In this document: positions 14,637-62,939 of the stretch, piece after piece | Position numbering within the stretch: position 1 is the first letter of the stretch | Layout of the letters: every line of letters starts with the position of its first letter | From: Pseudomonas sp. J452 | GTDB lineage: Bacteria > Pseudomonadota > Gammaproteobacteria > Pseudomonadales > Pseudomonadaceae | Reading direction: 5' to 3' | Assembly: GCF_024666525.1 (NCBI RefSeq) | Contig: NZ_CP088294.1 | Location: 2,728,001-2,792,000, forward strand | Length of the DNA: 64,000 nt | Translations under genes and position numbers: made by a program | Notes under the pieces: generated by a model | What the model saw: the letters and a program-made list of their open reading frames with translations, nothing else | What the model was told of the DNA's origin: nothing | Databases searched by the model: none

Positions 14637-15995
14637 TCAACGTTCGCGCAGTGCTTCCGAGCGGGCTTTGAGCACGGGCTTGAGCAGGTAGTCCAGCACG
14701 CTCTTCTCGCCGGTGATGATGTCGACGGTGGCCACCATGCCGGGAATGATCAGCAGGGGATGTTCCTTGGTGCCCAGGTGGCTCTGGTCGGTGCGTACCT
14801 GGATCAGGTAGAAGCTGTTGCCTTCCTCGTCGGTGATGGTGTCGGCGCTGATCAGTTCCAGTTTGGCCTTCAGTCCGCCATAGATGGTGTAGTCGTAGGC
14901 GGTGAACTTGACCATGGCCTTCTGGCCGGGATGGAGGAAGGCCACATCCTGCGGGCGCACCTTGGCTTCGATCAGCAGGTTGTCTTCCAGCGGTACTACT
15001 TCGACCATGGCATCACCGGGCTGCACCACGCCACCAATGGTGTTGACCTTGAGCAGCTTGATGATCCCGTGCACGGGTGAAACCACCGTGGTGCGGGTCA
15101 CCCGGTCGTCGATGGCGACGCTGGTAGAGGTGATCTTCTTCAGCTCGGTGCGCATCTCGTTGAGTTCCTTGAAGGCATCCGAGCGGAAGGCCAGTTCGGA
15201 CTCCTGAATGCGGCTCTTGATTTCTTCGATGGCCGATTCGGCGCGCGGGATGGCCAGGTTGGTTGCATCCAGCGAGCCGCGCACCTCCACGGCGCTGCGG
15301 CGCAGGCGGAGGATTTCCACCTGAGAGATCGCTCCGGTTTCCACCAGCGGCTGCGACATGTTCAGCTCCTGTTGGAGCAGCCCAAGACTGGAGCGATATT
15401 GCTGGGATTTGGCGCGGAATTCGGCGAGCTCCTGGGTTTTCTGCTGCAACTGCTCCTGCAGGGTGTTTTGCTCACTGTGCAGGCGCTGCTGGCGCGAGCG
15501 ATACAACGCCATTTCGTCTTCAACCAGTTGCGGGGCCTGTTTCACCAGCTCCTCCGGCAAGGCCAGGGGGCGACCCTCGGCTTCGGCGCTGAGGCGTTCC
15601 ACGCGGGCGACCAGGGCCATGCGATCGGCTTCGGTTTCGCCACGGTTGGAGAGGAAGCGGGTGTCGTCGAGGCGCAGCAGGGTGTCGCCCTTGTTCACTA
15701 CTTGGCCTTCACGCACGAAGATCTCAGTGACGATACCGCCTTCCAGGTTCTGGATGACTTGTATCTTGCTGGATGGGATGGCTTTGCCTTCGCCGGTGGT
15801 GACCTCTTCCAATACGGCGAACTTGGCCCAGATCAGCGCCACCAGCAGGCAGGCGCTGACCGACCACACCGTGGCCCGGGCCAGCCAGGGCGAATCTTCC
15901 AGAATGGCGCCGTCTACTTCGGGCATGAACTCGGTGTCCTGCTTGTTTTTCTGCAGGCTGCCGAAGTAATCGCGGATCGATTGAGTCAGTTCCAT
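14637..15995 (-). CDS. lapC: LapC, membrane-fusion protein of type I secretion
   Basis: HlyD-family adaptor, 452 residues, that bridges the LapB ABC transporter in the inner membrane to the LapE pore. After a short cytoplasmic N-terminus (to about residue 40, EDSPWLARAT) there is one membrane helix (VWSVSACLLVALIWAKFA), a lipoyl half-domain (IPSSKIQVIQNLEGGIV), a long coiled coil of about 200 residues rich in Glu/Gln/Leu, the second lipoyl half (TVVSPVHGIIKLLKVNTIGG) and a beta-barrel tail. ATG 15995 follows GGAGGT. Third gene of lapE-lapB-lapC, 26 bp after lapB. Confidence 0.93.
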   Translation of the reverse strand: MELTQSIRDYFGSLQKNKQDTEFMPEVDGAILEDSPWLARATVWSVSACLLVALIWAKFAVLEEVTTGEGKAIPSSKIQVIQNLEGGIVTEIFVREGQVVNKGDTLLRLDDTRFLSNRGETEADRMALVARVERLSAEAEGRPLALPEELVKQAPQLVEDEMALYRSRQQRLHSEQNTLQEQLQQKTQELAEFRAKSQQYRSSLGLLQQELNMSQPLVETGAISQVEILRLRRSAVEVRGSLDATNLAIPRAESAIEEIKSRIQESELAFRSDAFKELNEMRTELKKITSTSVAIDDRVTRTTVVSPVHGIIKLLKVNTIGGVVQPGDAMVEVVPLEDNLLIEAKVRPQDVAFLHPGQKAMVKFTAYDYTIYGGLKAKLELISADTITDEEGNSFYLIQVRTDQSHLGTKEHPLLIIPGMVATVDIITGEKSVLDYLLKPVLKARSEALRER

Positions 15996-16021
15996 GCACG
16001 ACCTCCACAGGGTGGCGCGCT

Positions 16022-18184
16022 TTACACCGCCGCCGGACCGACGCGACCCTTGCGCAGGGCTTCGATCACGGCTTCTTTAGGGCCATCGGCGACGACATGG
16101 CCATTGTCGAGTACCACCAGGCGGTCGACCATGCTGAGCATCGAGGCGCGGTGGGTGATCAGCAGTACGGTCTTGCCCTGCGCCAGGCTGTGCAGGCGGT
16201 TGCGCAGGATGTCTTCGCTGGTGTTGTCCATGGCGCTGGTCGGTTCGTCGAACAGCAGGATGGGCGGGTCGAGCAGCAGGGCCCTGGCTAGCAATACTGC
16301 CTGGCGTTGGCCGCTGGACAGCAGTTGCCCGCGTTCCCCTACCGGGCGATCGAAGCCTTGCGGGTGTTGCCGGGCCAGTTCGGAAACCCCGGTCATTTCC
16401 GCCACTTCGAGCATGCGCGCGTCGCTGACATAACGGGCGCCCAAGGTCAGGTTGTCGCGCAAGCTGCCCGACAACAGGGGCAGGTCGTGGGCGACGTAAC
16501 CGATCTGGTGGCGCAGGTCGGCGACATCCAGCTGGCGCAGATCGAGGCCGTCGAGAAGAATCTGGCCTTCGTCCGGGCTGTAGAAGTTCATCACCAGGCG
16601 CGCGAGTGTGCTTTTGCCCGAACCGCTACGACCGATGATGCCGATTCGCTCTCCGGCATTCATGCGCAGGCTGACTTTGACCAGGGCCGGGGTGCTCTGG
16701 CCGGGATAACTGAAGCTGACCTGGCGTACATCGAGCGCGCCTTTCAGATGGGTGCGTTCCAGTGGGCGCTGCTTGGCCTCGCGTTCCTGGGGCAAAGCCA
16801 TCAGCGCATCGGTGCTGGTCATGGTCAGGCGGGCTTGCTGGTAGCGGGTAATCAATCCGGCGATTTGCCCTAATGGGGAAAGTACTCGGCTGCCGAGCAT
16901 GTAGCAGGCCACCAGGGCACCAACGCTGAGGTGCCCGGCGATGATGATGTAGACCCCGGCGACTATGGTGGCCATACCGGCAAACTGCTGGAAGAACATG
17001 GTGCCGTTGGTGGCCAGTGAGGCGAGGAAGCGGCTGTGGTTATCCAGGCGGGTGAGAGCGCCATGGGTTTTTTCCCAGTGATGCTGGCGCTCGCTTTCGG
17101 CGCTGCAGGCCTTGAGGGTTTCCAGGCCGCTGAGGGTCTCGATCAGTAGCGCCTGGCGTTCGGCGCCCAGGGCGAGGCTTTTCTGTACGGTGTCGCGCAG
17201 GCGAGACTGGATCACCAGGGCGAAAATGGCGGTAATCGGGAAGGCCAGCAGGGGAATGACCACCAGCCAGCCACCCAGCAGGCCAATGACCACGATCATG
17301 AGGATGGAGAAGGGCAGGTCGATCAGGCTGGTCAGGGTCACGGCGGTGAGAAATTCACGCAGCCCCTGGAAGTCGTGGATGCTCTGGGCGAACCCGCCGA
17401 CGGTGGCCGGTCGCGCCTTCATCGACATGCCGGTGATGCGCTCGAACAGCGTGGCGGACAACACCACGTCGGTCTTCTTGCCGGCAATGTCGAGCAGATG
17501 TGCTCGCAGTACACGCAGCAGCAGTTCGAAGCCGCTGCCGATGAACAGACCGATGACCAGTACCCACAGAGTCGACGTGGCCTGGTTGGGTACCACGCGG
17601 TCATAGGTTTGCATGACGAACAGCGGCACCATCAGGCCCAGCAGGTTGATCAGCAGGCTGGCGAGCACCGCGTCGGTATACAGCCAGCGTGACAGCTTGA
17701 GCGTGTCACGAAACCAGGCATCGATGCGTGGTACCAGCGGTGTGCGGACATCTTCCAGCTCATGCCGCGGACGGGCGAAGAAGGCCTGGCCGGAATACTC
17801 CAGCAGCAGGTGTTCACGACTGACCCATTGCTCGCCGCCTTCGGCTTCGCACGGCAGGATCAGCAGCTGGTTCTTTGGCCCGAACTTGCGCAATACGGCG
17901 CTGCGACCGTCTTTCAGCAATAGCAGGACGGGCAGGTTGAGGGGTGAGATGGCGTTGAGGTCGCGGCGCAATATGCGCCCTTGCAGACCCGCCCTGGCGG
18001 CTGCGCGTGGCAGGAGTTCAGCGCTCAGGCATTGTTCCGGCATTGGCAGGCCGGCGGTAAGGCTGGCCCGGCTGGCGGAGCATTCATGCAGGTTGCAGAG
18101 AATCAGTAATCCATCCAGTAGCGGGTCATCGTGACTTTGCCGCTGGTCGTCGGAAGGCTTCCGTTCCATGGTGGTCAAGGTCAC
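16022..18184 (-). CDS. lapB: LapB, type I secretion ABC transporter
   Basis: Inner-membrane exporter ATPase for the LapA adhesin, about 720 residues. It has an N-terminal C39-like domain without the protease cysteine (residues about 20-140), an ABC membrane domain (about 170-440) and a nucleotide-binding domain with Walker A GRSGSGKST and Walker B PILLFDEPTSAMDN. The ABC signature reads LSSGQ instead of LSGGQ, whereas the mapB copy has LSGGQ. The start is uncertain: GTG 18184 is only two bases from AGGAG, TTG 18178 is better spaced, and ATG 18169 is also in frame. It lies 63 bp after lapE. Confidence 0.93.
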   Translation of the reverse strand: MTLTTMERKPSDDQRQSHDDPLLDGLLILCNLHECSASRASLTAGLPMPEQCLSAELLPRAAARAGLQGRILRRDLNAISPLNLPVLLLLKDGRSAVLRKFGPKNQLLILPCEAEGGEQWVSREHLLLEYSGQAFFARPRHELEDVRTPLVPRIDAWFRDTLKLSRWLYTDAVLASLLINLLGLMVPLFVMQTYDRVVPNQATSTLWVLVIGLFIGSGFELLLRVLRAHLLDIAGKKTDVVLSATLFERITGMSMKARPATVGGFAQSIHDFQGLREFLTAVTLTSLIDLPFSILMIVVIGLLGGWLVVIPLLAFPITAIFALVIQSRLRDTVQKSLALGAERQALLIETLSGLETLKACSAESERQHHWEKTHGALTRLDNHSRFLASLATNGTMFFQQFAGMATIVAGVYIIIAGHLSVGALVACYMLGSRVLSPLGQIAGLITRYQQARLTMTSTDALMALPQEREAKQRPLERTHLKGALDVRQVSFSYPGQSTPALVKVSLRMNAGERIGIIGRSGSGKSTLARLVMNFYSPDEGQILLDGLDLRQLDVADLRHQIGYVAHDLPLLSGSLRDNLTLGARYVSDARMLEVAEMTGVSELARQHPQGFDRPVGERGQLLSSGQRQAVLLARALLLDPPILLFDEPTSAMDNTSEDILRNRLHSLAQGKTVLLITHRASMLSMVDRLVVLDNGHVVADGPKEAVIEALRKGRVGPAAV

Positions 18185-18247
18185 TACTCCTGAGAGGTTG
18201 CCTGGAAACAGTGGATGAATCGTTTCCAGGCAATCTCTTCGCCGGGT

Positions 18248-19603
18248 TTACTTCATTTCCGGCAGGCGCGCCTCACTTTTGATTTCGGTGAGTGCTACAG
18301 CTTCAGCCGGGAGTACGACGTTCTGCTTCTTCAGCAGATCGCCCGTGGCGGAGATCACGCGGTACATGGAGAACTCTTCGGTGTAGCGCACCTCGGTGTA
18401 ACGGCGGTTGGCGGTGAAGAGTTCGTTTTCACTGTCCAGCAGGTCGAGCAGGGTGCGTTGGCCGAGGCTGAACTGCTGCTGATACGCCTCGCGTACGCGT
18501 GAGGTGTAATCAGCATAGTCGCGCGCCTTGGGAGTTTGCAGGCGGGCGTTCTCCATGGCGTTCCAGGCCAGGGCCAGGTTCTCGTTGAGAACGCGCAGGG
18601 CATTGTTGCGAATGTCCATCGACTGGTTGATCTGGTGCGCCGCTGATTGCAGGCGGGCCTTGTCGCGCAGGCCGTTGAACAGGTTGTAGTTCATCACCAC
18701 GGCGGCACGCCAGGTGTTGTAGTGGCCTTCATCGCCCTGGGTGTTGTCATCGGCGGTGGTGGCCAGCTCCAGATCGAAGCGCGGGTAGAAGGGCGACTTG
18801 GCCACTTCATACTGCTTCTCTGCGGCATACACATCGGCTTGTGCCGATTTCAGGTAAGGGTTGTTGTCCATTACCGTTTGCCGGGCAACGCCCAGATCCT
18901 CGGGGACTTCACCCTTGATCGTGCCTGGTTGCTCCAGCTCGTCGGGCATGCGTCCGGTAGCGCTGAAGAAGTTGGCTTCGGCGTCGGCGAGGTTGACTTG
19001 TTCGGTGTAGAGGTTGTTCTCCGCCAGTGCCAAACGCGCTTCGGACTGATCGAGGTCGGCAGTGCTGCCCACGCCCCGCTCGCTACGCAGGCGGATCTGA
19101 TCATGGATGCGCTGGTGGGCCTGCAGGTTGTTCTCGGCCAGGGTCACCATTTCGCGGCGCTTGAGTATGTCCAGGTAGACCTCGACGGTACGCAGGGCCA
19201 GGCTCTCGGAGGTGCCTAATACATAGTAGGCGCGGGAGTTCACCACGGCTTCAGTGCGCGCCACCTCGTTTGGGGTGTTGAAACCATCGAACAGCATCTG
19301 CCGCAGGCGCAGTTCGGCGTCGCGGTAGTTCAGGGTTTCCTTGTTGTGATCGCCAAGAGCACGAGTGCTTGGGCTGTCGGTTTGCTCGCGACCATAGCCG
19401 GCTAGCAGATCGACGGTTGGCAGGTAGCCGCCCTTGGCAACCTTGACCTCTTCATCGGAGACAAGGCGGTCATTCATGCTGGCGTGCAGTTCGGGGTGGT
19501 TGTCTACCGTGCTTTGAATCGCCTCGGAGAGGGTCATTGCCTGTGCCTGGGTACAGGCAATCGCTAGCAATATGCCTTGGCAGAGCGGTGTAAGAACGCG
19601 CAT
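18248..19603 (-). CDS. lapE: LapE, TolC-like outer-membrane secretion pore
   Basis: TolC/AggA-type outer-membrane channel of 451 residues. LapA is thought to stay threaded through it until LapG cuts its anchor. A signal peptide (MRVLTPLCQGILLAIACTQA) precedes two structural repeats of long helices: MTLSEAIQSTVDNHPEL near the start, and LAWNAMENARLQ with QQQFSLGQRTLLDLLDSENE in the second repeat. ATG 19603 follows AAGGAG; the frame is open further upstream but lacks a start signal there. First gene of lapEBC and divergent from lapA. It is the only outer-membrane export pore in the window, though two inner-membrane pumps are present. Confidence 0.93.
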   Translation of the reverse strand: MRVLTPLCQGILLAIACTQAQAMTLSEAIQSTVDNHPELHASMNDRLVSDEEVKVAKGGYLPTVDLLAGYGREQTDSPSTRALGDHNKETLNYRDAELRLRQMLFDGFNTPNEVARTEAVVNSRAYYVLGTSESLALRTVEVYLDILKRREMVTLAENNLQAHQRIHDQIRLRSERGVGSTADLDQSEARLALAENNLYTEQVNLADAEANFFSATGRMPDELEQPGTIKGEVPEDLGVARQTVMDNNPYLKSAQADVYAAEKQYEVAKSPFYPRFDLELATTADDNTQGDEGHYNTWRAAVVMNYNLFNGLRDKARLQSAAHQINQSMDIRNNALRVLNENLALAWNAMENARLQTPKARDYADYTSRVREAYQQQFSLGQRTLLDLLDSENELFTANRRYTEVRYTEEFSMYRVISATGDLLKKQNVVLPAEAVALTEIKSEARLPEMK

Positions 19604-19640
19604 GGGGTAGTTCTCCTTATTTATATGCTCAGTTCCTGTC

Positions 19641-19654
19641 GCCAGAATATTGAC
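19641..19654 (-). promoter_or_regulatory. Candidate FleQ box
   Basis: The minus strand reads GTCAATATTCTGGC. Against the published FleQ consensus GTCaNTAAAtTGAC, the first half matches fully and the second half partly. It lies 38 bases upstream of lapE. FleQ control of lap genes is known in other pseudomonads, but this site is only a match by eye. Confidence 0.3.
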
Positions 19655-19765
19655 GCTTTCCCTGAAAAAGCGTTTCAGGTCTGTAACATCACAGCTAAGA
19701 ACATCTTTAAGAGTAGCTAAGAAAAAATTGGCGCAAGATTTATGAGAAAAAAGTCTTATGCACTC

Positions 19766-19781
19766 TGTGAAAACCAGCACA
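19766..19781. promoter_or_regulatory. Candidate Vfr/CRP-type site
   Basis: TGTGA-N6-GCACA differs from the CRP consensus TGTGA-N6-TCACA by one base. It is 160-290 bases from either divergent start codon. Confidence 0.3.
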
Positions 19782-20058: not shown

Positions 20059-23000
20059 ATGGCTACTTTGATTGGTGTCGTCAGCCAGGTTGTCGGCGAG
20101 GTCTATGCGGTAGCTGGCGACGGAACGCGTCGGCCGCTAGTCGAGGGTGATCGTGTCTATGCCGGTGAGCAGCTTGTAACCGGTGCCAGCGGTGCGATTG
20201 CCATCACCATGACCAACGGTCAGGAACTGACCGTTGGGCGCGATAGCAGTCTGACCCTCAACGAGCAGATGCTCGCCGGCGCAGAGGGTACGCCTCCTGC
20301 TTCACCTGAAGATGCGGCCCCTGCCGCTCCCTCCGATTCCGAACTGACTGATGTCGAACAATTGCAGGCTGCGATCGAGGCGGGTGTCGACCCGACCCTT
20401 GAGGGCGAAGCGACTGCTGCTGGTCCCGGTGCAGGCGGCGGTGGTGCTGGTGGTGCTGGTGGCATAGGTGGCGGCCATAGCTTTGTACTGCTCGGCGAGA
20501 CCGGCGGTGCACTCGATCCGGTTATCGGTTTCCCCACCGAGGGGCTGAGTAGTGGTCCGGAGTTCCCGGATGCCGAACCCATTGTGACCCCTGACCCGGA
20601 AGCGCCGGTTGTAATACCGGATTTCACCCCGGACATCGACATCGAATACGAGGACGAGAGCGGTACGCTGGTTGCCGGGCCGGCCATTGTTGACGAGGAA
20701 GGGCTGGCCGATGGCACCAACCCTGGCAGCAATGCCGAGCAGGCCAGCGGTACGATCATTATCGATTCGCCGGATGGCATTTCTGTACTGGAAATCCAGG
20801 ACGTCAATGGTAACTGGATAGATGTAACCGATGGCGGCGTAGTGCAGGGGCAGTATGGGACCCTGACGGTGGATGCAGCCGGTAACTGGACCTATACCCT
20901 TAGTGATAACACCTTCGACCACAGCAATCCTAACGCCACGGGTGCAGCTGATCAGGTTGGCGAAAGCTTCCCTGTGCGGATGTTCGACCTTGATGGTGAT
21001 GTATCGCCTACGGTGTCTATTGATGTGCTGGTCAACGACGATGGCCCGATTCTGCTAGAGGGCGAGGGCGCACTGGTCTCTGCCGTTGTCGATGAAGACG
21101 AAACCTCTGATGGCATCAGCGATGGCGACGGCGTTACCAACTCGGTTTCCGGTGGTGCCGGTACCCTCACCGCACTGGTCAACTTCGGTGCCGATGGCGT
21201 TGGCAGCTTTGGTCTGAGTGGAAGCCCGGCTGCTATCGCCTCTCTGGAGGCACAAGGTCTGACCTCGGGTGGAGTCGCGCTGACCTACAGCGTCGTTGGC
21301 AATGTGCTGACCGCTTCGGCAGGTGGTGAAACCATTTTCACCCTGCAGGTGGGTGGTAACGGCAGTTACAGCTTCACTCTGGTTGGTCAGCTCGATCATC
21401 CGACCCCAGATGGCAATGACGATGAACTGCTCGATTCGGGCATCGACTTCTCTGGCGTGCTGGCCGCGACTGATGGTGACGGTGACTCGGTGGGAACCTT
21501 CAACCAAGGTAGCTTCGTCATCAATGTTGAGGACGATGTGCCGCAACTGGTGGAGTTGCGCGAAGTTGGCGTAATCGCGCAGGTACAGGAGGACGCACTG
21601 ACCACTGCTGGTGGTGCCCCCTATGAAGGCAATGACGAGGGTGGCCAGGTAACCACCGTCAGTGGCGGCCCAGGTACTCTTTCGGCCTTGGTCGATTTTG
21701 GTGCCGATGGCCCTGGTGGTTTTGGTCTGTCCGCTGATGTCAGCTCGCTGGATGCCCAATCCCTGAGTAGTGGCGGCATAGCGCTGAGCTATAGCGTCGT
21801 AGGTAATGTGCTGACCGCTTCGGCAGGTGGCGAGACCATCTTTACCCTGACCGTGAACCCGGATGGTAGCTTCAGCTTTGTACTCAGCGGTCCGCTTGAT
21901 CACCCGGACCAGGATGGCAATGACTCCGAAGATCTCCCCGGCCTGGGTATCGACTTCTCTGCAGTACTGACTGCGGTAGATGGAGATGGCGACCCGCTGC
22001 CTGGCGGCTTCCCACCGGGTAGTTTCGCTATCGATGTTGAGGATGATGTGCCCGAGTTGGCCGGCAACCCTGAACAGGAAGAAGGTGGTTTGCTCTCGGT
22101 CAGTGGCCAGGTGCATGAAGATGCTCTGAGCCTGGGTGATGGTGCGCCCTACGAGGGCAATAACGACAGCCTGGGGCAAACCACTACGGCCAGTGCTCCG
22201 GATGGCACCTTGTCGGCCCTGGTCAACTTTGGTGCTGATGGCCCAGGCAGCTTCGGTCTGTCGACCGATGTCAGCTCGCTTGATACGCAGGGGCTGAGTA
22301 GTGGCGGTATCGCTCTGACTTACAACGTAGTGGGCAATGTACTGACGGCCTCTGCCGGTGGTGAAACCATCTTCACCCTGACCGTGACAGCCGGAGGTGG
22401 CTACGAATTTGTGCTCAGCGGCCCGCTGGATCATCCCAACGCCGATGGCGATGACAGCGAAAATATCAATGGCCTGGGCGTCGATTTTTCCGGAATTCTT
22501 ACGGCTACCGATGGAGATGGCGACCCCTTGGGCGCTGGTTTTCCGCGCGGTAGCTTCACCGTCAACATTGAAGACGATGTACCGCGGCCGGTGGTGGACG
22601 GTGAGGCCGGTGTGCACGCAGCTGTGCAGGAAGATGCATTGACATTGGGCGATGGTGCGCCCCATGAAGGCAATGATGAAGGTGGTCAGAGCACTACCAT
22701 TACCGCGCCTGACGGCACGCTGTCCGGCCTGGTTGAATTCGGCGCGGATGGCCCCGGTAGTTTCGGTCTGTCGACGGATGTCAGTTCACTCGATACACAG
22801 AACCTGAGCAGTGGTGGTGTGCCCCTGACCTACGATGTGGTCGGCAATGTGCTGACCGCCTCAGCTGGTGGTGAAACGATTTTCACCCTGACTGTGACGG
22901 CTGGTGGCGGCTACGAGTTTGTCCTCGAAGGCCCACTCGACCATCCGATGATGGATGGCAATGACAGTGAAACCCTTGTGGGTCTGGGCATCGACTTCTC

Positions 23001-33413: not shown

Positions 33414-35360
33414 TCAGCCCTGCCAGGGTGCTGGTGCACCAATCAGGCGACCCATGGCGCCGTGGATACCCAGTTCGTTCAGCACCGCTAGTTCACCTTC
33501 GGTCTCCACCATCTCGGCAATCAACGGCAGGTCAATGCTGTTGGTGGCGCGGAAGATGGCTTCGATGAACATGCGCTTGTCGCTTTCCTGGTCGATGGCG
33601 CGGATGTAGGTGCCATCGATCTTCAGGTAGGCCAGGCCCAGGTGGGTCAGGTTGCCGATCAGGCTGAAACGTCCACCGAAGTGCTGCAGGCCCAGGTGGA
33701 AACCGGCTTCACGCACGGCCTGGCTGAGTTTTTCCAGTTCTGCCGATGGCGGCAGGTAGCGCTCGTCCAGCTCCAGGGTCATCAGCGGACCCTGTTCCGG
33801 GTGCTCCCGGAGAATGGCAAGCATCTTCGCCAGGCTGGCCGGCTCACGCAGGGTTGCCGCAGACAGGCTGAGTGCCAGTGGTTGGGGGTTCTGCGTGAGG
33901 TGCGCCAGGCTGTGTTCGAGCATGGCCAGGTCGAAGCGCGCGGCCCAGCCGAGGCGCTCGATCCAGGGCAGGAAGCGGCCCGCGGCGATGGCTTCGCCCT
34001 GTGGGTCGATCAGGCGGGCGAGTACCTTCTGGTGCAGCGGCTGGCTGCGATCGGCGCACTGGGTGACCGGCTGGAAGTAGAGTTGCAGCTTGCTTTGTTT
34101 GAGCGCGTCGTCGATCCAGGCACGCCAGTCGTGCAGGCCTTGGCCGGGCATCGCGTTGAAGTCGTCCAGGCGTTCCCAGGGCTTGCCGGCATTGCTTTGT
34201 GCCTGGGCCAGGGCCTGGTCGGCGCGGCCGATCACGCTGCCCGGCTCCTCGCCGGGTTTGAATGCGGCAATGCCCAGGTGGGCGACTGGAGTGCAGTCGC
34301 TGGCACCGGTCTGGCGCAGGCTTTCCAGGCCTTCGACCAACTCCTGGGCCAGGCGGTCGGCATCTTCGCCAGCCAGGCCAGGGGCGAGCAGGGTAAATTC
34401 GCCGCCACGGCTACGTGAAGCCAGCCAATCCGGGGTGCCCTGCTCATCCAGCAGGCGTTTGAGCAGGTCGCCAATCGCGCTGATCAGGGCGTCGGTTTTC
34501 TGGCCGCCCATGCGCTGGTTGAGCCCGCCGAGGTCGTTGACGCGCAGGAACATCAGATAGCCTTCAGCGTTCTGTTCGGTAACGGCCAGTTGGTCGGCCA
34601 GGCGGATATCGAACAGGCGGCGATTGGCCAGGCCGGTAAGGCTGTCCTGATAGGCTTCTTCGCGCAGTTTCTCGCTGCGTGCGGCTTCTTCGGCGAACAG
34701 GTTTTTCAGCTTTTCGACCATCTGGTTCATGGCCATGACCACGCGCTTCAGCTCGGGGGTGCGTGGCACCTTGGGCAAGGAGAGAAACTCGCGACGGCTG
34801 ATGGCCTGGGCCTGCTGCACCATGTTGTCGAGAGGGCGCAACTGGGTGCGCAGCAGCCAGCCACCGAGGATGGCGCTGACCACGCCGCACAACAGCAGCC
34901 AGAGCAGGCTGCCGATGGCGCTGTCCCACAGCTTGGCCAGGGCGAATTGCGGGTGGCTGAGCACCTCGACCCGCGCGGCCTGTTCCCAGCCCCGCATGAT
35001 CAGGGCATCACCACCCTGGGGCTCCAGGTCGACCATGTCGACGAACCAGGCCGGGACATTATCCGAGGTGATGGTGGTGCGCCGCTCGACTATCACTTCC
35101 TCGCTGGGAATGCGCACCACGCGGATGGTGGCGAAGTAGCCGCTGTCGAAGATCGAGCTGACCATCAGTTCGATCATCGCCGGGTCATCGACGTGCGGGG
35201 TCATGGACAGGCCGAGCGCCGTGGCGGCGTCCTGGGCATGGGAGCGCAGTTGGCTGAGCAGTTGCTCGCGCGAGCTCTCCACCCCGGCGATGAAGCTGCC
35301 GGTGAAGGCCACTACCAGGAATAGGCAGATGGCGAGAAAAAGTTGTTTTAACAAGGACAT
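33414..35360 (-). CDS. lapD: LapD, c-di-GMP receptor controlling LapG
   Basis: Inner-membrane signalling protein of 648 residues. The N-terminal helix (LFLAICLFLVVAFTGSFIAG) is followed by a periplasmic LapD/MoxY domain (about 25-150), a second membrane helix (SLLWLLLCGVVSAILGGWLL), a HAMP domain, a GGDEF domain and an EAL domain. The GGDEF motif is RGGEF (about residue 315) and the EAL motif is KVL (about 443), so both enzymes should be dead and the EAL domain a c-di-GMP sensor. Known LapD binds c-di-GMP and sequesters LapG. ATG 35360 follows GGAGA; only 9 bp separate it from lapG. Confidence 0.95.
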   Translation of the reverse strand: MSLLKQLFLAICLFLVVAFTGSFIAGVESSREQLLSQLRSHAQDAATALGLSMTPHVDDPAMIELMVSSIFDSGYFATIRVVRIPSEEVIVERRTTITSDNVPAWFVDMVDLEPQGGDALIMRGWEQAARVEVLSHPQFALAKLWDSAIGSLLWLLLCGVVSAILGGWLLRTQLRPLDNMVQQAQAISRREFLSLPKVPRTPELKRVVMAMNQMVEKLKNLFAEEAARSEKLREEAYQDSLTGLANRRLFDIRLADQLAVTEQNAEGYLMFLRVNDLGGLNQRMGGQKTDALISAIGDLLKRLLDEQGTPDWLASRSRGGEFTLLAPGLAGEDADRLAQELVEGLESLRQTGASDCTPVAHLGIAAFKPGEEPGSVIGRADQALAQAQSNAGKPWERLDDFNAMPGQGLHDWRAWIDDALKQSKLQLYFQPVTQCADRSQPLHQKVLARLIDPQGEAIAAGRFLPWIERLGWAARFDLAMLEHSLAHLTQNPQPLALSLSAATLREPASLAKMLAILREHPEQGPLMTLELDERYLPPSAELEKLSQAVREAGFHLGLQHFGGRFSLIGNLTHLGLAYLKIDGTYIRAIDQESDKRMFIEAIFRATNSIDLPLIAEMVETEGELAVLNELGIHGAMGRLIGAPAPWQG

Positions 35361-35369: not shown

Positions 35370-36068
35370 CTAACCCTCACCAACGGCGAAACCTTCGGCG
35401 CGCATTTTCTTCAATAGATCCTGCCAGCGCGAGAGCTTCTTGCTATCGCTTTTCTTGCTGTTGGAGCCCGGTAGATACAGCCCTTCGGCGTTGAAGGCAT
35501 AGACCGGCAAGAGGTCTTTGCGCTGGGACGCCGGGCGGATTTCGCTGATCAGGTTGTCCAGCACCAGGGGCACTGCCGAGGGGCTTGAGTAATACGTGAG
35601 GACCATGTGTGCCTGGTTGTACTTCAGGGCCTTGACGTAGGTGATGCGCATCTTCTCGCTGGGGATGCCGAGGCGGCGCAGGGTGAAGTATTTGGCGATG
35701 GAGTAGTCCTCGCAGTCGCCGGCGCCTTTCACCAGCGCTTCCACCGGGGTGGCCCAGTAGTCTTCCTGGCGCCAGTTGCGGATGTCATCGGAGAAACGGA
35801 ACTGGCGGTTGAAGAAGCGATTGACCGTGGCGAGCTTCTCGCTTTCAGAGAGGTTGGCGCTGGCCTGGATCAACTCGTCCCAGGCCTCGATACGGCCCTT
35901 GGCCACGCCCAGCTTGCCGTAGCGCTGCTCGGCGTTCTGGATGACCACGCCGAAGTCCCAGTTGGCCTTGGCGGCTACGCCGAGCAGCAAGCCCAGCAAC
36001 AGGCCGAGCGCAAGCCAGGCCGCCGGCCGGCGCTGCGCTCGTCCTTGAATGCTCGACCGAGAATGCAT
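35370..36068 (-). CDS. lapG: LapG, periplasmic adhesin-cleaving cysteine protease
   Basis: Transglutaminase-like (BTLCP) protease of 232 residues that cuts the N-terminal anchor of LapA-type adhesins after TA in a TAAG-like site. A membrane or signal segment (AAWLALGLLLGLLLGVAA) leads to the periplasmic domain. The catalytic triad is C119 (GAGDCEDYS), H154 (NQAHMVL) and D171 (LVLDNL); the acidic residues beside C119 match the calcium site. The start at 36068 has only a weak AGAGA upstream, so it is less certain than the rest. It is cotranscribed with lapD. Confidence 0.94.
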   Translation of the reverse strand: MHSRSSIQGRAQRRPAAWLALGLLLGLLLGVAAKANWDFGVVIQNAEQRYGKLGVAKGRIEAWDELIQASANLSESEKLATVNRFFNRQFRFSDDIRNWRQEDYWATPVEALVKGAGDCEDYSIAKYFTLRRLGIPSEKMRITYVKALKYNQAHMVLTYYSSPSAVPLVLDNLISEIRPASQRKDLLPVYAFNAEGLYLPGSNSKKSDSKKLSRWQDLLKKMRAEGFAVGEG

Positions 36069-36148
36069 GGCTTGTCTCTGCGCTGAAAGTGCCAAAAGTT
36101 TAGGCGCTACGTCACACTTTTGCCGCTTTTGTTTGTCGGCCAGCGGGT

Positions 36149-50856: not shown

Positions 50857-50887
50857 TAGCGCGGACCTTGCTGCCCGGATGGGCGGG

Positions 50888-56800: not shown

Positions 56801-58810
56801 GACGGTGGCGGCATCGGCGACGGCGACTGGCGCGTCATTGGCCGGGGTGACGCCTACGGTCACGGTGACCGGATTGGAGACCTGGCCGCTGGCGTCCTTG
56901 ATGGTGTAGGTGAAGCTGTCGCCGGTGGTCTCGCTGCCGTTGTGCTGGTAGCTGACGGTGCCGTCGGCGTTGACGGTGATGGTGCCGTTGGCTGGGTCGG
57001 CAGTGATGACGATGCTGCTCAGGTCGAGGCCGTCATCGCTGTCGCTGTCGTTGTCGGCCAGATCGATCAGCACGCTGCCGCCTTCGGCGACGGTGGCGGC
57101 ATCGGCGAGGGCGACCGGGGCATCGTTGCTTGGGGTGACGCCGAGGGTGACGGTGACCGGGTTGGAGGTCTGGCCGCTGGCGTCCTTGATGGTGTAGGTG
57201 AAGCTGTCGCCGGTGGTTTCGCTGCCGTCGTGCTGGTAGCTGACGGTGCCGTCGGCGTTGACGGTGATGGTGCCGTTGGCCGGGTCGGCGGTGATCACGA
57301 TGCTGCTCAGGTCGAGGCCGTCATCGCTGTCGCTGTCGTTGTCGGCGAGGTCGATCAGCACGCTGCCGCCTTCGGCGACGGTGGCGGCATCGGCGACGGC
57401 GACTGGCGCGTCATTGGCCGGGGTGACGCCTACGGTCACGGTGACCGGATTGGAGACCTGGCCGCTGGCGTCCTTGATGGTGTAGGTGAAGCTATCGCCG
57501 GTGGTCTCGGAGCCGTCGTGCTGGTAGCTGACGGTGCCGTCGGCATTGACGGTGATGGTGCCATTGGCCGGGTCGGCGGTGATCACGATGCTGCTCAGGT
57601 CGAGGCCGTCATCGCTGTCGCTGTCGTTGTCGGCGAGGTCGATCAGCACGCTGCCGCCTTCGGCGACGGTGGCGGCATCGACGACGGCGACCGGGGCGTC
57701 GTTGCTCGGGGTGACGCCGAGGGTGACGGTGACCGGGTTGGAGGTCTGGCCGCTAGCGTCCTTGATGGTGTAGGTGAAGCTGTCGCCCGTGGTCTCGGAG
57801 CCATTGTGCTGGTAGCTGACGGTGCCGTCGGCGTTGACGGTGACGGTGCCATTGGCCGGGCCACTGGTGATGACGATGCTGGCCAGATCGAGGCCGTCGT
57901 CGCTGTCGCTGTCGTTGCCAGCGAGGTCGATCAGCACGCTGCCGCCTTCGGCAACGGTGGCGGCATCGGCGACGGCGACTGGCGCGTCATTGACCGGGGT
58001 GACGCCGATATTGACCACCAGGGTGTTGAGTCCCCCCCGGCCATCGCTGACCTGGACCTGGAAACTGTCCGGACCGTTGTAATCGGGGTTGGGGGTGTAC
58101 AGCCAGCTGCCATCCGGGTTCAGGGTCAGTTGGCCATTGTCCGGTGCGTCGAGCAGGCTGAAGGTCAAGCTGTCGCCATCTGCATCTTCGAGTTGGAAGC
58201 TGCCTTCGAACGGCGTGTCTTCGGGGGTCTCGACGTTGAGTGAACCACCTGGCGGTGGGGTGTTCTCAGCGGCTGGTGGCGTGGCGTCTGTGGCGGCTGC
58301 GGTTGCAGGCGTGGGTGCGGGCGTCTCGTCTTCGATGGCCACGAAAGCGTTATCCAGGCCTTCGGTGACAAAACCTACCGTCGGATCAAGCTGCTCTGCG
58401 GTTTCGCTGAGCAGCACGAAGCTGTGGCCACCACCGATTCCCCCAGCACCGCCGCCGGCGCCACCGGCACCCGGGCCGGCCGCAGTGGCAGCCAGCTCAG
58501 CGGTGGGGTCGACACCCGCGGCGATGGCTTGTTGCAGCTCTTTTACCGCGAGTTCGTCCTCGGATGGGGGCTGGGTCGCCTGCGTGGGCTGGGTATCGGT
58601 TTCGGTGTTGGCGAGCCACTGGCTGTTCTGACCGATTTCGAGCTCTTGGCCACCCTGCATTTGCAGGCTGAGCATGCCTTGTTGTCCGGTCATGACCTGA
58701 TCGCCGCGGAACAGGCGATCGCCCTCAACGAGCAGGCGTTGGATGCCTTCGGGTGAAAGTGCAATGACCTGACCGACAACGCCTTTGACGACCGCAACGA
58801 CATTGCTCAT
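50888..58810 (-). CDS. mapA: MapA-like second RTX adhesin with Lap retention module
   Basis: Surface adhesin of 2640 residues. The N-terminus (MSNVVAVVKGVVGQVIALSP) is a Lap-type retention module with a TAAG site (T109-G112), then a Gly/Ala linker like that of LapA. A cadherin-like domain is followed by seven 96-residue Ig-like repeats, a different linker region, five more repeats, a von Willebrand A domain (from about residue 1795, MIDAS DTSSS), and RTX nonapeptides (about 2470-2540, GGNDHLEGKGG) with the secretion tail. It is divergent from its own pump genes. ATG 58810 follows GGAGAG. By homology to MapA of P. fluorescens it should be a LapG substrate; the name is by analogy. Confidence 0.9.
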   Translation of the reverse strand: MSNVVAVVKGVVGQVIALSPEGIQRLLVEGDRLFRGDQVMTGQQGMLSLQMQGGQELEIGQNSQWLANTETDTQPTQATQPPSEDELAVKELQQAIAAGVDPTAELAATAAGPGAGGAGGGAGGIGGGHSFVLLSETAEQLDPTVGFVTEGLDNAFVAIEDETPAPTPATAAATDATPPAAENTPPPGGSLNVETPEDTPFEGSFQLEDADGDSLTFSLLDAPDNGQLTLNPDGSWLYTPNPDYNGPDSFQVQVSDGRGGLNTLVVNIGVTPVNDAPVAVADAATVAEGGSVLIDLAGNDSDSDDGLDLASIVITSGPANGTVTVNADGTVSYQHNGSETTGDSFTYTIKDASGQTSNPVTVTLGVTPSNDAPVAVVDAATVAEGGSVLIDLADNDSDSDDGLDLSSIVITADPANGTITVNADGTVSYQHDGSETTGDSFTYTIKDASGQVSNPVTVTVGVTPANDAPVAVADAATVAEGGSVLIDLADNDSDSDDGLDLSSIVITADPANGTITVNADGTVSYQHDGSETTGDSFTYTIKDASGQTSNPVTVTLGVTPSNDAPVALADAATVAEGGSVLIDLADNDSDSDDGLDLSSIVITADPANGTITVNADGTVSYQHNGSETTGDSFTYTIKDASGQVSNPVTVTVGVTPANDAPVAVADAATVAEGGSVLIDLADNDSDSDDGLDLSSIVITADPANGTITVNADGTVSYQHDGSETTGDSFTYTIKDASGQTSNPVTVTLGVTPSNDAPVALADAATVAEGGSVLIDLADNDSDSDDGLDLSSIVITADPANGTITVNADGTVSYQHNGSETTGDSFTYTIKDASGQVSNPVTVTVGVTPANDAPVAVADAATVAEGGSVLIDLADNDSDSDDGLDLTSIVITADPANGTVTVNADGTVSYQHNGSETTGDSFTYTIKDASGQTSNPVTVTVGVTPANDAPLIRVPDTQTTAEDTSKTFSLLMQNALGVFDAEQDNLSVTLSVEHGVLNIGLNLLGASHTGSGTTTLTITGSAAAINNAMAQLNYVPGADYFGPDNLQISASDGQTTVNDSVAITVTPVNDAPTTTPITLAAIAEDSGGRVITQAELLANGSDIESDNLVASNLAITAGNGSLTDLGDGTWLYTPAANDDSSVSFSYTITDDGTSNGLSDPKSVTASATLDISPVNETPVAVADAATVAEGGSVLIDLADNDSDSDDGLDLTSIVITADPANGTVTVNADGTVSYQHDGSETTGDSFTYTIKDASGQVSNPVTVTVGVTPSNDAPVAVADAATVAEGGSVLIDLADNDSDSDDGLDLSSIVITADPANGTVTVNADGTISYQHDGSETTGDSFTYTIKDASGQVSNPVTVTLGVTPSNDAPVAVADAATVAEGGSVLIDLADNDSDSDDGLDLTSIVITADPANGTVTVNADGTVSYQHDGSETTGDSFTYTIKDASGQVSNPVTVTVGVTPSNDGPVAVADAATVAEGGSVLIDLADNDSDSDDGLDLTSIVITADPANGTVTVNADGTVSYQHDGSETTGDSFTYTIKDASGQVSNPVTVTLGVTPSNDAPVAVADAATVAEGGSVLIDLADNDSDSDDGLDLSSIVITADPANGTITVNADGTVSYQHDGSETTGDSFTYTIKDASGQVSNPVTVTVGVTPVNDAPSADSASFNATQGGSPVVIALSGSDQDAGDSVESFRITALPEEGSLLLNGVAISAAAVATGTAIVTSTQIAAGLLTYQPNNSFDSQNDGPAPTFTFQAYDGESYSDPATVTLNVADATPTAIDDFASLTEGTQASTVNLVIMLDTSSSMVDAAYGGVISLPGGGTTTRFELAKDALENLINSYGNSLQNVMLVTFNGSATFQGWFDPSSAISTIQGLGTANGTDFDGALQQVQQNYGTPADVDHTYVYFVSDGFPATSLGLTSGSASVSASEREDWVDFLESNAIDAAYAVGIGSDLNSDYAKSNLDTVAWSPDPADNPALTWNSNDSLFYNPGDIVQASSTHNSNTIVVADPFDLESVLQGTVQVFEGELLNGSISGSIADNFGADGAATPKIVAVALDSDGNGVGDISASFDGTSYTLDLGATIGTLSINAVTGNYVFNPVAGFDIADDTSFKIRYTIEDADGSQDSATLNLTLRDSSEVNAYDNAAQAQVQQSTTLDGAAAIVLADFSSTNMSSTNGSQWAFDTSGNSSTTNVVGQGQTPTGAQWQLIGSATVGDTSDDGDADSELRITDSKTSDSDTSGSTVTTPTFTLAANQTASVSFFVDLDTDSSGNQFQSGDIFRWALVNSSGVEVQTGTLTAASSDGTITRTLTSGATSETYRLVFSLTDNTRAASGNKTAEVRIDDISLDIISTTTMNAPAITGNVIDNPNNHAGSSDAWGAQDSLGSEGAIVSAINGVGFSGSTNVTGLYGSLTISDTGQYTYTPFANVTNQGQSEAFSYTLTQPDLDSSTAQLVFDIVASPSTLTPISGDGALTGGSSTDVLLGGATADTLSGLGGNDHLEGKGGVDNLLGGEGDDILIGGTGNDNLWGEGGSDTFVWHAGDTGADVIKDFDLAQDKIDLSDLLQGEENASDIGDYIKLSASGDTLLVSSTGSLDATGSNADVSIQLEGVNLSEPSLNLGATPAAIINSLIAGSDPTVKLDH
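53845..55284 (-). repeat. mapA repeat array, five 288-bp units
   Basis: Five direct 288-bp units, each coding a 96-residue Ig-like domain (VTPxNDAP, VAEGGSVLIDLADNDSDSDDGLDL, less its ends, and TIKDASGQ). This is the C-terminal array in the protein. Confidence 0.9.
55968..57990 (-). repeat. mapA repeat array, seven 288-bp units with 576-bp super-repeat
   Basis: Seven direct 288-bp units. Between about 56200 and 57490 the units alternate in type (VALADAAT versus VAVADAAT), and the two-unit block of 576 bp is repeated with almost no base changes, sharing the same rare variants (GTTGGCTGGGTCGGCAGTG; GGCGAGGGCGACCGGGGC). This is the N-terminal array. Confidence 0.9.
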
Positions 58811-59407: not shown

Positions 59408-61588
59408 GTGAAAAAGAACCGAGAGTGTTCCCGCGTGACCGCAGAAACCAGCCAGACCAAGCCAGTGGGTGATCCACGGGCGCGTTACGATGACCCCCTG
59501 CTGGACAGCCTGCTGTCGCTCTGTGCCCTGCACCAGCGCCCGGCTACCCGTGCCATGCTGACGGCCGGTTTGCCCTTGCCGGCGCAGCGCCTGAGTGCCG
59601 AGTTGCTGCCGCGTGCCGCTGCCCGTGCGGGTCTGCAGGGGCGCTGGTTGCGCCGTGAGCTGCAGCAGATTCCCGCCATGGCCTTGCCGGCCCTGCTGCT
59701 GTTGAAGGATGGCCGCAGTGCCATCCTGCTGGCGTGCGAGGCCGAACATGCGCGCTTGCTGCTCAGCGAAAGCGACGGTGGCGAGGTGCGGGTCAAGCTG
59801 GATCTGCTGCTCGCGGATTACTCCGGCGAGGTGTTCTTTGCCCAGCCGCGGCACAAGCACGATCTGGATCGGGAAAGCCTGATCCCGCGCACCCGCTCCT
59901 GGTTCCGCGACACCCTCAAGCGCTCGCGCTGGCTGTATATCGATGCGGTGGCGGCCAGCGTACTGATCAACCTGATCGGCCTGTTCGCTCCGCTGTTCGT
60001 GATGAACGTCTACGACCGGGTGGTGCCCAACCAGGCGGCGGCGACTCTGTGGGTGCTGGCCATCGGCATCTCCGGCGCCTACCTGTTCGACCTGCTGCTC
60101 AAGACCATGCGCGGTCTGTGTCTGGACCTGGCCGGCAAGAAGACCGATCTGATCATTTCCGCCACGCTGTTCGAGCGCATCGTCGGCATGACCATGAAGG
60201 TGCGCCCGGCGCGGATCGGCAGCTTCGCGCAGAACATCCACGAGTTCCAGGTGCTGCGCGACTTCCTCGCCTCGCTGACGCTGACCAGCCTGATCGACCT
60301 GCCATTCACCCTGCTGGTATTGCTGGTGATCGCCGTGCTCGGCGGCCATCTGGTGTGGATTCCGCTGCTGGCCTTCCCCCTGGCGCTGGGCATCGGCTGG
60401 CTGTTGCAGAAACCCCTGGCCGAGACCATGGAGCGCACCATGGCGCTGTCCGCCGAGCGCCAGTCGAGCCTGATCGAGACCCTCGCAGGGCTCGACGCGG
60501 TCAAGGTCAACAACGCCGAGAGCGAGCGCCAGTACCAGTGGGAGCAGACCATCGGCACCCTCAGCCGCCTGGAACTGCGCGCGCGCATGCTATCCAGCCT
60601 GGCACTGAACATCACCGGGCTGATCCAGCAGTTGGCCGGTGTGGTGATGATTGTCTGCGGCGTCTACCTGATCATCGCCGGCGATCTCAGCATGGGTGGC
60701 CTGATCGCCTGCTACATGCTCAACAGCCGCGCGCTCAGTCCGCTGGGCCAGCTCTCCGGCTTGCTCACCCGCTATCAGCAGGCGCGGGTGACCATGCTCA
60801 ATATCGACCAGATGATGGAGCTGCCGCAGGAGCACGAGGAGCACGAGCGGCCCCTGGCGCGTCCACAGCTGCGCGGCGCCATCGAGTGCCGTGACCTGGA
60901 GTTTCACTACCCGCAGCAGCAGGGCGCGGCGCTCAAGGACATCAGCCTGCAGATCCGCCCCGGCGAGAAGGTCGGCATCATCGGCCGCAGTGGTTCGGGC
61001 AAGAGTTCCCTGGCCAAACTGCTGGTCGGCCTCTACCAGGCCGACTCCGGCAGCCTGCTGGTGGACGGCGTGGACATCCGCCAGCTGGACGTCAGCGACC
61101 TGCGCCACAACATCGGTTATGTACCGCAGGACATCCAGCTGTTCAGCGGCAGCCTGCGCGACAACCTGGTCAGCGGCGCGCGCTACGTCGAGGACAGCCT
61201 GGTTCTGCATGCCGCCGAACTGGCCGGTGTGCACGAGTTCGCCCGGATCCATCCGCAGGGCTACGAGCTGCCGGTCGGCGAACGGGGGCAGCAGTTGTCC
61301 GGCGGCCAGCGGCAGAACGTGGCCCTGGCCCGTGCATTGCTGCTCGACCCGCCAATCCTGCTGCTCGACGAGCCGACCAGCGCCATGGACAACTCCGGCG
61401 AGGAACGCCTCAAGCAGCGCCTGCTGCCGGTGATCGCCGACAAGACCCTGCTGCTGGTCACCCACCGCACTTCGCTGCTCAGCCTGGTGGAGCGGCTGAT
61501 CATCATCGACCGCGGGCGCATCGTCGCCGACGGGCCGAAAGCCGAGGTGATGGATGCTTTGCGCGGAGGGCGGATCAATGTCGCTTGA
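59408..61588 (+). CDS. mapB: MapB-like type I secretion ABC transporter
   Basis: Second inner-membrane exporter ATPase, 726 residues from GTG 59408. Same plan as LapB: C39-like domain without catalytic cysteine (DPLLDSLLSLCALHQRP onward), ABC membrane domain (WLYIDAVAASVLINLIGLFAPLFVM), and ATPase with Walker A GRSGSGKSS, signature LSGGQRQ and Walker B PILLLDEPTSAMDN. It is divergent from mapA and coupled to mapC. The start is uncertain; GTG 59435 is also in frame and nearer the LapB start by alignment. It presumably exports MapA. Confidence 0.92.
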   Translation: MKKNRECSRVTAETSQTKPVGDPRARYDDPLLDSLLSLCALHQRPATRAMLTAGLPLPAQRLSAELLPRAAARAGLQGRWLRRELQQIPAMALPALLLLKDGRSAILLACEAEHARLLLSESDGGEVRVKLDLLLADYSGEVFFAQPRHKHDLDRESLIPRTRSWFRDTLKRSRWLYIDAVAASVLINLIGLFAPLFVMNVYDRVVPNQAAATLWVLAIGISGAYLFDLLLKTMRGLCLDLAGKKTDLIISATLFERIVGMTMKVRPARIGSFAQNIHEFQVLRDFLASLTLTSLIDLPFTLLVLLVIAVLGGHLVWIPLLAFPLALGIGWLLQKPLAETMERTMALSAERQSSLIETLAGLDAVKVNNAESERQYQWEQTIGTLSRLELRARMLSSLALNITGLIQQLAGVVMIVCGVYLIIAGDLSMGGLIACYMLNSRALSPLGQLSGLLTRYQQARVTMLNIDQMMELPQEHEEHERPLARPQLRGAIECRDLEFHYPQQQGAALKDISLQIRPGEKVGIIGRSGSGKSSLAKLLVGLYQADSGSLLVDGVDIRQLDVSDLRHNIGYVPQDIQLFSGSLRDNLVSGARYVEDSLVLHAAELAGVHEFARIHPQGYELPVGERGQQLSGGQRQNVALARALLLDPPILLLDEPTSAMDNSGEERLKQRLLPVIADKTLLLVTHRTSLLSLVERLIIIDRGRIVADGPKAEVMDALRGGRINVA

Positions 61589-62939
61589 GTCCTTCAAGGC
61601 GCAATTGCGCAGCTATTTCCAGGGCCGCGCCTCGCTTGACGGGCAACCCATGCCCGAAGTCCGCAAGGCCCTGGTGGAAGACGCCCCGCGCCTGGTGCGC
61701 CTGACCATCTGGAGCCTGATCGCCTTCTTCGCCTTCGGCCTGTTGTGGGCGCACTTTGCCGTGGTCGACGAAGTCACCCGCGGTGATGGCAAGGCGATTC
61801 CCTCGTCCAAGCTGCAGAAGATCCAGAACCTGGAGGGCGGCATCGTCGCCGAACTGTTCGTCCGCGAAGGCCAGGTGGTGGAGGCGGGCGCGCCGCTGCT
61901 GCGCCTGGACGACACGCGCTTTGCCTCCAACGTCGGTGAGACCGAGGCCGATCGTTTCGCCCTGCTGCTGCGCATCGAGCGCCTCAGCGCGGAGATCGAG
62001 GGCCGGCCGTTGAGCATGCCGGCCAAGGCGGTCGAGGCCGTGCCGCACCTGGCGGCCAGCGAACAGGCACTGTTCGAGAGTCGCCAGCAGCAATTGCGTG
62101 ACGAAGTGGCGGGGCTGGAAGAGCAGCTGATCCAGCGCCAGCAGGAACTGCGTGAATTCGCCTCCAAGCGCGAGCAGTACAGCCGCAGCCTCGGTTTCCT
62201 GCGTCAGGAGATCGAGATGTCTGAGCCGCTGGTGGCGCAGGGTGCCATGTCCCAGGTCGAGCTGCTGCGCCTGCGCCGTACCGAGGCGGAGAACCGTGGT
62301 CAGCTGGATGCCACCAGCCTGGCGATTCCACGGGCCGAGTCGGCGATCAAGGAAGTGCAGCGCAAGATCGACGAGACCCGTGGGCGCTTCCGCAGCGATG
62401 CGCTGACCGAGCTGAACGAGGCGCGTACCGAACTGAGCAAGATCCAGGCGACCGGCAAGGCCCTGGAAGACCGGGTCAACCGCACCCTGGTCACCTCGCC
62501 GGTGCGCGGCATCGTCAAGCAGTTGCTGGTCAACACCATCGGCGGGGTGATCCAGCCGGGCAGCGACCTGGTGGAAATCGTGCCGCTGGACGACAGCCTG
62601 CTGGTCGAGGCGCGCATCCGTCCGCAGGACATCGCCTTCCTCCATCCGGGGCAGAAGGCCGTGGTCAAGTTCACCGCCTACGACTACACCATCTACGGCG
62701 GTCTGCAGGGCAAGCTGGAGCAGATCGGTGCCGACACCATCACCGATGAGGAAGGCAACAGCTTCTACCTGATCCAGCTGCGCACCGACAAAAGCCACCT
62801 GGGGACTGAAGAGCGCCCGCTGCTGATCATTCCCGGCATGGTCGCCTCGGTGGACATCATCACCGGCAAGAAGAGTGTGCTGAGCTACCTGCTCAAACCG
62901 ATCATCCGCGCCCAGTCCGAGGCACTGCGCGAGCGCTGA
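61578..62939 (+). CDS. mapC: MapC-like membrane-fusion protein
   Basis: HlyD-family adaptor of 453 residues, parallel to LapC throughout: one membrane helix (IWSLIAFFAFGLLWAHFA), lipoyl half-motif LQKIQNLEGGIVAELFV, a long coiled coil, the second half VTSPVRGIVKQLLVNTIGG, and the barrel with YDYTIYGGLQGKLEQIGAD. The final residues (IIRAQSEALRER) nearly equal those of LapC. ATG 61578 overlaps the mapB 3' end by 11 bp and follows GGAGGG. No outer-membrane pore gene follows it. Confidence 0.93.
   Translation: MSLESFKAQLRSYFQGRASLDGQPMPEVRKALVEDAPRLVRLTIWSLIAFFAFGLLWAHFAVVDEVTRGDGKAIPSSKLQKIQNLEGGIVAELFVREGQVVEAGAPLLRLDDTRFASNVGETEADRFALLLRIERLSAEIEGRPLSMPAKAVEAVPHLAASEQALFESRQQQLRDEVAGLEEQLIQRQQELREFASKREQYSRSLGFLRQEIEMSEPLVAQGAMSQVELLRLRRTEAENRGQLDATSLAIPRAESAIKEVQRKIDETRGRFRSDALTELNEARTELSKIQATGKALEDRVNRTLVTSPVRGIVKQLLVNTIGGVIQPGSDLVEIVPLDDSLLVEARIRPQDIAFLHPGQKAVVKFTAYDYTIYGGLQGKLEQIGADTITDEEGNSFYLIQLRTDKSHLGTEERPLLIIPGMVASVDIITGKKSVLSYLLKPIIRAQSEALRER

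Follow-up and report, generated by a model that had tools for sequence, protein, structure and literature searches.

The window analysed here is a 64,000-nucleotide stretch of Pseudomonas sp. J452 (G000:C1:2728001-2792000, where G000 is our label for this genome, a single contig of 4.86 Mb). It encodes two giant adhesins of the type I secretion system (T1SS), called here adhesin 1 and adhesin 2, together with one LapD, a receptor for cyclic di-GMP (c-di-GMP), and an adjoining LapG, a periplasmic cysteine protease. Because the genome contains one LapD, two retention modules and one close LapE outer membrane channel, the best explanation, taken as a whole and with a probability of roughly 0.7, is that this LapD and its neighbouring LapG control the surface retention of both adhesins. 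The explanation draws on observed genes, motifs, copy numbers, trees and synteny. An earlier note, made from the letters of this DNA, had proposed one switch for two adhesins, and the list of parts supports it: a single LapD and a single LapG linked to it are accompanied by two adhesins that show the full architecture of a LapG site. The core idea is not new, being known for LapA and MapA of P. fluorescens, FrhA and CraA of V. cholerae, and Desulfovibrio. What the present analysis adds is a reversed loss of the switch, a second LapG that is conserved, and a LapE channel that both adhesins probably use in common.

LapD_MoxY_N has a single match in the whole genome, the lapD of the window. The protein has this periplasmic domain, a HAMP domain and degenerate GGDEF and EAL domains, in which RGGEF and KVLAR replace the GGDEF and EVLAR motifs; the GWxQ tryptophan is W125, in a GWEQ loop at residues 124–127. 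The neighbouring LapG scores 349.1 bits against the NCBIfam model CystProtLapG (cut-off 320 bits) and keeps the C/H/D triad, which marks it as a LapG equivalog of the BTLCP family. Its open reading frame (ORF) is 35370-36272(-), and the first methionine would put the start at 36068. Retention modules have two matches genome-wide, and Peptidase_C93 also has two, the lapG of the window and a gene elsewhere, here called lapG2. The statement in the earlier note that there is one LapG and one LapD thus holds for the window and, as regards LapD, for the genome, where the suggested search for further copies gave no second lapD; as regards LapG it fails outside the window, since the same search found LapG2. 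A third, weak LapG match at C1:4793011 (34% identity, E 1.5e-4, three stops) was set aside as spurious. One close LapE is present, in the window, the four other matches in the genome being 21–25% identical.

Both adhesins have the features of a LapA-type protein, namely a retention module, TIGR03661, HemolysinCabind (RTX) repeats and a type I C-terminal domain. Their N-termini score 134.7 bits (adhesin 1) and 124.1 bits (adhesin 2) against the retention_LapA model NF033682 (cut-off 50 bits), and the two modules are 58% identical. Each contains a targeting helix, a DPT turn and TAAG, which is the order of helix, DP and [T/A/P]AAG given for LapG substrates in the available part of PMC13090378. 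TAAG occurs once per adhesin, at residues 119–122 and 109–112 as the earlier note had it, and since composition leads one to expect about 0.004–0.006 per stretch of 40 residues, its presence at a homologous place in both is not due to chance. Across 94 adhesin N-termini of both types described below, 93 have DP followed by [T/A/P]AAG.

The Gly/Ala linker that follows the site is, as had been noticed, the same in both adhesins: the stretch from TAAG into the linker is 95% identical over 20 aligned residues at the protein level (window 20416-20478 and about 58421-58483). The corresponding pair is 90% identical in P. guryensis and 55–76% in G013, G049, G080 and G091. Gene conversion between the two N-termini was considered and rejected, as the same codon is used at only 6 of the 19 identical residues. 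Nor does linker similarity serve as a rule for recognising a shared LapE: in G013, whose type I system has no lapE match next to it, it is 55%.

The two adhesins belong to different types of locus. Trees were built for the ATP-binding cassette (ABC) transporter (36 rows), the membrane fusion protein (MFP; 36 rows), the outer membrane channel (OEP; 29 rows) and the adhesin N-terminus (37 rows, later 94), and each divides into two clades with 100/100 support. In the ABC, MFP and N-terminal trees the two systems of the window fall on opposite sides. Adhesin 2, its ABC transporter and its MFP lie in clade I (100/100), with the lap-locus genes of P. fluorescens-type genomes; the system of adhesin 1 is in clade II, at a recQ-linked (MapA-type) locus, and does not group with the P. 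fluorescens-type lap locus. The name LapA, which the earlier note gave to the 4234-residue protein, is therefore not supported: this is the MapA-type protein, and the 2640-residue "second adhesin" is the one that belongs to the lap-locus clade. These orthologies are anchored on the P. fluorescens LapG (PDB 4u65 chain E) and on neighbouring genes in the sampled genomes rather than on LapA or MapA records. The 4u65 LapG lies inside LapG clade I (31 rows, 100/99) and is up to 96% identical to members of that clade and 62% identical to the LapG of the window.

Synteny agrees with the trees. In G010, G019, G036, G052 and G062 the clade I adhesin is found at 0.12–0.21 Mb, no more than about 25 kb away from the sole full-length lapG; that of clade II is at 1.63–1.78 Mb. 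This fits strain F113, for which the accessible text of PMC7716237 gives a lap cluster with lapDG (PSF113_0205-0211) and a map cluster with mapBCE (PSF113_1508-1510). The adhesin 1 locus has the order lapCBE, adhesin, lapDG, UPF0149, recQ, MarR, FimV, at a conserved place. The lapDG-UPF0149-recQ order recurs in G049, G005, G012, G076, G041 and G064, and also in G014, where the clade II adhesin is elsewhere; in G015 and G065 the clade II adhesin stands beside UPF0149-recQ without lapDG. The synteny comparison proposed earlier shows a lapDG locus conserved beside recQ and, with the trees, reverses the labels of the adhesins. No lapD, lapG or lapE is found beside adhesin 2 in the window, where no outer membrane channel gene is seen 3' of its MFP gene. 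LapE adjoins 10 of the 16 type I systems whose loci were fetched; it is missing here and from the fetched flanks of P. guryensis, G013, G054, G065 and G023, where no LapE match was obtained even at E 1e-3.

The distribution of these parts was examined in 79 Pseudomonas genomes (G labels; fetched loci have L labels), with LapG sequences extracted by tblastn at 91 of 91 loci. LapG is matched in 65 of the 79 at E 1e-10 (in G003 as a short N-terminal fragment only), LapD in 64 and a retention module in 66; some are draft genomes, for which counts of adhesins, LapG and LapD may be underestimates. One clade I and one clade II adhesin are present in 38 genomes. This set excludes G038 (one type II module and a partial match), G072 (two type I modules), and G086, G090 and G092, whose coordinates are those of G013, G028 and G054 and which are probably the same genomes. 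Seven of the 38 (G005, G012, G027, G046, G049, G053, G058) carry two LapD together with both kinds of lapG, and the remaining 31 have one LapD. The lapG of these 31 was classed by tree in 13: it is in clade I in nine (G007, G009, G011, G015, G023, G036, G065, G068, G069) and outside it in four (G000, G013, G014, G054). The other 18, which bring the type I total to 27, are called type I by identity only, at 60–63% to the LapG of the window as against at least 64% for lapD-linked sequences outside clade I; clade I values go up to 66%. Pseudomonas sp. 8AS (G080), a close relative, has both kinds of LapG and both adhesins, which suggests, from the gene content, a recent loss of the clade I switch in the present lineage. 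P. guryensis, which is not part of the sample, carries both adhesins, LapG2, and one further lapG of the same kind as that of the window. In the draft genome G072 (L206, L207) two clade I retention modules accompany one LapD.

The earlier note had also called the layout unusually compact, and so it is. Among the 19 sampled genomes with both adhesin types on one contig, this is the only one in which they are less than 400 kb apart, at 38 kb (distances calculated by hand, the shortest way round). The compact layout is common to P. guryensis, which has the same gene order as the window, with adhesin 2 split across two contig ends. It is not needed for a single switch, since 13 of the other 18 genomes have a single LapD and adhesins more than 400 kb apart. 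In P. tumuqii (G087; L044-L045) two retention-module adhesins lie about 10 kb apart, in a stretch that holds two sets of ABC and MFP genes, a single LapE and one lapDG; this genome has more LapG-like matches and adhesins elsewhere.

On the basis of these observations, we suggest that each adhesin would be exported by its own ABC/MFP pair, and that both would probably halt half-way in the same LapE channel, held there by the N-terminal retention module; sharing is probable because only one close LapE was found in the genome. At high c-di-GMP, LapD would hold LapG; at low c-di-GMP, LapG would be free to cut both adhesins at TAAG and so release them. The ancestor probably carried both loci in complete form, with a separate lapDG at each. 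In the present lineage the lap-type (type I) locus would then have lost its lapD, lapG and lapE, with the recQ-linked (type II) set retained, the reverse of P. fluorescens. We infer the direction and the order of these losses.

The second protease of this genome is an extra LapG-family protein. LapG2 (G000:C1:2485561-2486238(-)) is 53% identical to the LapG of the window over LapG residues 124–296, has the Peptidase_C93 domain and C/H/D triad of a LapG-like (BTLCP) protease, and has no lapD beside it. It misses the LapG equivalog cut-off (CystProtLapG, 237.5 against 320 bits) and forms its own 100/100 clade. Among the named records found, the closest is from P. guryensis SR9 (90%). Counting the present genome, 16 of 298 in the genus have LapG2 at E 1e-68. 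The recJ gene is within 6 kb of lapG2 in all 18 named relatives, and in 10 of these a SnoaL gene is immediately upstream. All 19 recJ-linked sequences retain C, H and D, and the pairwise ratio of non-synonymous to synonymous substitution (dN/dS) against the copy in this genome is 0.14–0.48 in six comparisons. The numbering of contact residues was transferred by hand onto these sequences, anchored on the position of C135 in LapG, which we take as given. With this anchor the letters at A169, Y176, V205 and Y206 fit the LapG residues that cross-link to LapD in the accessible part of PMC4359373, where the "second LapG" is a second binding site or molecule and not a second gene. They are conserved in 18, 19, 19 and 19 of the 19 LapG2 sequences respectively, in a region that may also bind substrate. 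At the last three of these positions, 6 of 10 rows of a more divergent LapG-like clade have W, Q or E, and F. Six loci (L040, L046, L048-L051) form a divergent group without three of the four contact residues, and no matches to the lapD or Lap transport genes of the window were found in their fetched flanks. In Pseudomonas sp. sp1636 (G088) there are five LapG-like matches, one of which has an internal stop and lies near a contig end.

A gene for an NMT1/THI5-like domain fused to GGDEF (G000:C1:2483744-2485396; L004:17745-19397) lies 164 bp downstream of lapG2. A functional pair of the two was rejected as a general feature, as a full-length match occurs at 2 of the 19 loci (this genome and P. 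guryensis); at several others a different GGDEF-bearing protein is encoded in the lapG2 flank.

The presence of LapG2 raises the question of which protease cuts which adhesin. LapG2, and not the lapD-linked LapG, might cut adhesin 2, giving two proteases for two adhesins; the intact gene, with its invariant triad and the dN/dS values above, would suit such a task. However, the lapG2 gene is near recJ, some 300 kb away from adhesin 2, and the site in adhesin 2 fits the ordinary pattern of LapG substrates. Further, 7 of the 18 named genomes with LapG2 have one full-length adhesin match (one of the seven with an extra weak partial match), and only three of the 38 two-adhesin genomes (G000, G013, G054) have a LapG2 match, so that LapG2 is not tied to adhesin 2. 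We consider this division improbable, and no lapG/lapD pair dedicated to adhesin 2 came to light, there being no second LapD match. More plausible, although still doubtful, is that LapG and LapG2 both cut both adhesins with the single LapD holding both, an account that overlaps with the best explanation, so that the odds of the two are not exclusive. The conservation of the LapD cross-link positions in LapG2, and their replacement in the divergent clade, point this way, but substrate helices dock on the LapG β-sheet (according to the part of PMC13090378 available), so that this conservation may not report LapD binding, and LapG2 falls below the equivalog cut-off. Taken together with the history proposed above, a branched switch can be drawn in which one LapD governs LapG and the recJ-linked LapG2, and these act on two adhesins that share LapE, after a loss of the ancestral lapDG opposite to that in P. 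fluorescens; this fuller scheme is offered as a tentative one, a little less likely than the joint action of the two proteases.

It could also be argued that adhesin 2 has fallen out of export or use and for that reason lost lapD, lapG and lapE, in which case shared control would be moot. Its locus does lack a channel gene where most of the fetched type I systems have lapE beside them. Against this, the lapE match is also missing beside the type I systems of G013, G054, G065 and G023 and so is not peculiar to adhesin 2. The adhesin 2 ORF is open over 2640 residues and includes RTX repeats and, at the C-terminus, a secretion domain. P. guryensis, which also keeps adhesin 2, has an ABC transporter and MFP for it that are 99% identical to those found here. 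There is accordingly little to recommend a relic.

Control of both adhesins by the one LapD and its LapG is thus preferred, and several points weigh against it. Cleavage of both adhesins by LapG in this organism is predicted from their sequences, and the use of adhesin 2 is presumed from its gene. Since LapG2 retains the catalytic residues, it could act on one of the adhesins or on both, and one of the more distant channel homologues (21–25% identical to LapE) could serve adhesin 2. The LapGs outside clade I form no single well-supported clade, so that synteny counts for as much as the tree in labelling the lapG of the window "type II". Lastly, in one of the 94 N-termini (L177, from G032) GP replaces DP.

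The features of the window are listed in Table 1. Its T1SS genes are in two blocks, 14637-19981(-) and 59408-62939(+). RecQ, the GGDEF gene, EamA and recJ were identified by Pfam. The GGDEF gene lies at window positions 39518-40834, between recQ and DUF2804; a homologue is present at the syntenic loci of G012, G064 and G076, and is unmatched at those of G049, G005 and G041.

Table 1. Features of the window and the evidence on which each is assigned.
Feature	Position	Strand	Evidence
lapC-like membrane fusion protein, recQ-linked (type II, MapA-place) T1SS	14637..15995	-	Pfam HlyD_3; tree clade II
lapB-like ABC transporter, type II	16022..18184	-	Pfam ABC_tran, ABC_membrane, Peptidase_C39 (below its cut-off); clade II 100/100
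lapE-like outer membrane channel	18248..19600	-	Pfam OEP; ORF extends to 19981, conserved part from about 19600
Adhesin 1, 4234 aa	20059..32763	+	retention_LapA, T1SS_rpt_143, VWA, T1SS C-terminal target; type II by tree and synteny
Adhesin 1 TAAG codons, predicted LapG site, residues 119-122	20413..20424	+	Motif
lapD, c-di-GMP receptor	33414..35360	-	LapD_MoxY_N, HAMP, GGDEF, EAL
lapG, periplasmic cysteine protease, adjoins lapD	35370..36068	-	CystProtLapG; C/H/D and LapD-contact residues kept
Adhesin 2, 2640 aa	50888..58810	-	retention_LapA, tandem-95 repeats, BapA/Bap/LapF C-terminal domain, T1SS target; clade I 100/100
Adhesin 2 TAAG codons, predicted LapG site, residues 109-112	58475..58486	-	Motif
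ABC transporter, type I (lap-locus clade), divergent from adhesin 2	59408..61588	+	Pfam ABC_tran; clade I 100/100
Membrane fusion protein, type I system	61554..62939	+	Pfam HlyD_3; clade I

These results move "one switch, two adhesins" from a few model species to a testable evolutionary pattern within Pseudomonas, in which some genomes have two full loci and others have one switch, of either kind. The pattern predicts that each type of LapG is able to cut the adhesins of its own type and those of the other. LapG2 adds a further candidate protease to a pathway for which one LapG is normally described. In the titles and opening lines of abstracts surveyed, no paper was recognised that describes, for Pseudomonas, a second LapG or LapG paralogue, two copies of lapDG, or sharing of lapE, which is not a claim that these are unpublished.

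A single LapG acting on two adhesins has been published (PMC13090378; PMC6890996, both as far as available), and the present system can be set beside each known case. LapDG of V. cholerae is similar in that one LapG cuts both FrhA and CraA, and the neighbourhood of craA resembles that of adhesin 2 in having transport genes and, in the portion of PMC6890996 available, no LapE-like gene. It differs in that lapDG and the adhesin genes are located apart from one another, and that portion mentions no second LapG. In Desulfovibrio vulgaris, with DvhG and DvhD, one protease likewise serves two adhesins, DvhA and DVU1545; its regulatory proteins are divergent, and the retention domain helps the protease to dock (PMC13090378, in part). 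LapG of P. aeruginosa is comparable as a LapG-family protease that frees an adhesin (PMC4694147, in part), although that adhesin, CdrA, is secreted by the type Vb route and is not a giant T1SS adhesin. The closest likeness is to the Lap system of P. fluorescens (LapG, LapD, LapEBC, MapEBC), with two giant T1SS adhesins, one LapD and LapG, TAAG-like sites and the same gene families (available parts of PMC7716237 and PMC13090378). Unlike P. fluorescens, the genome studied here has lapDG at the recQ-linked locus in the place of MapA and a lap-type locus without lapD, lapG or lapE; its adhesin genes start about 38 kb apart, and it has a second LapG paralogue.

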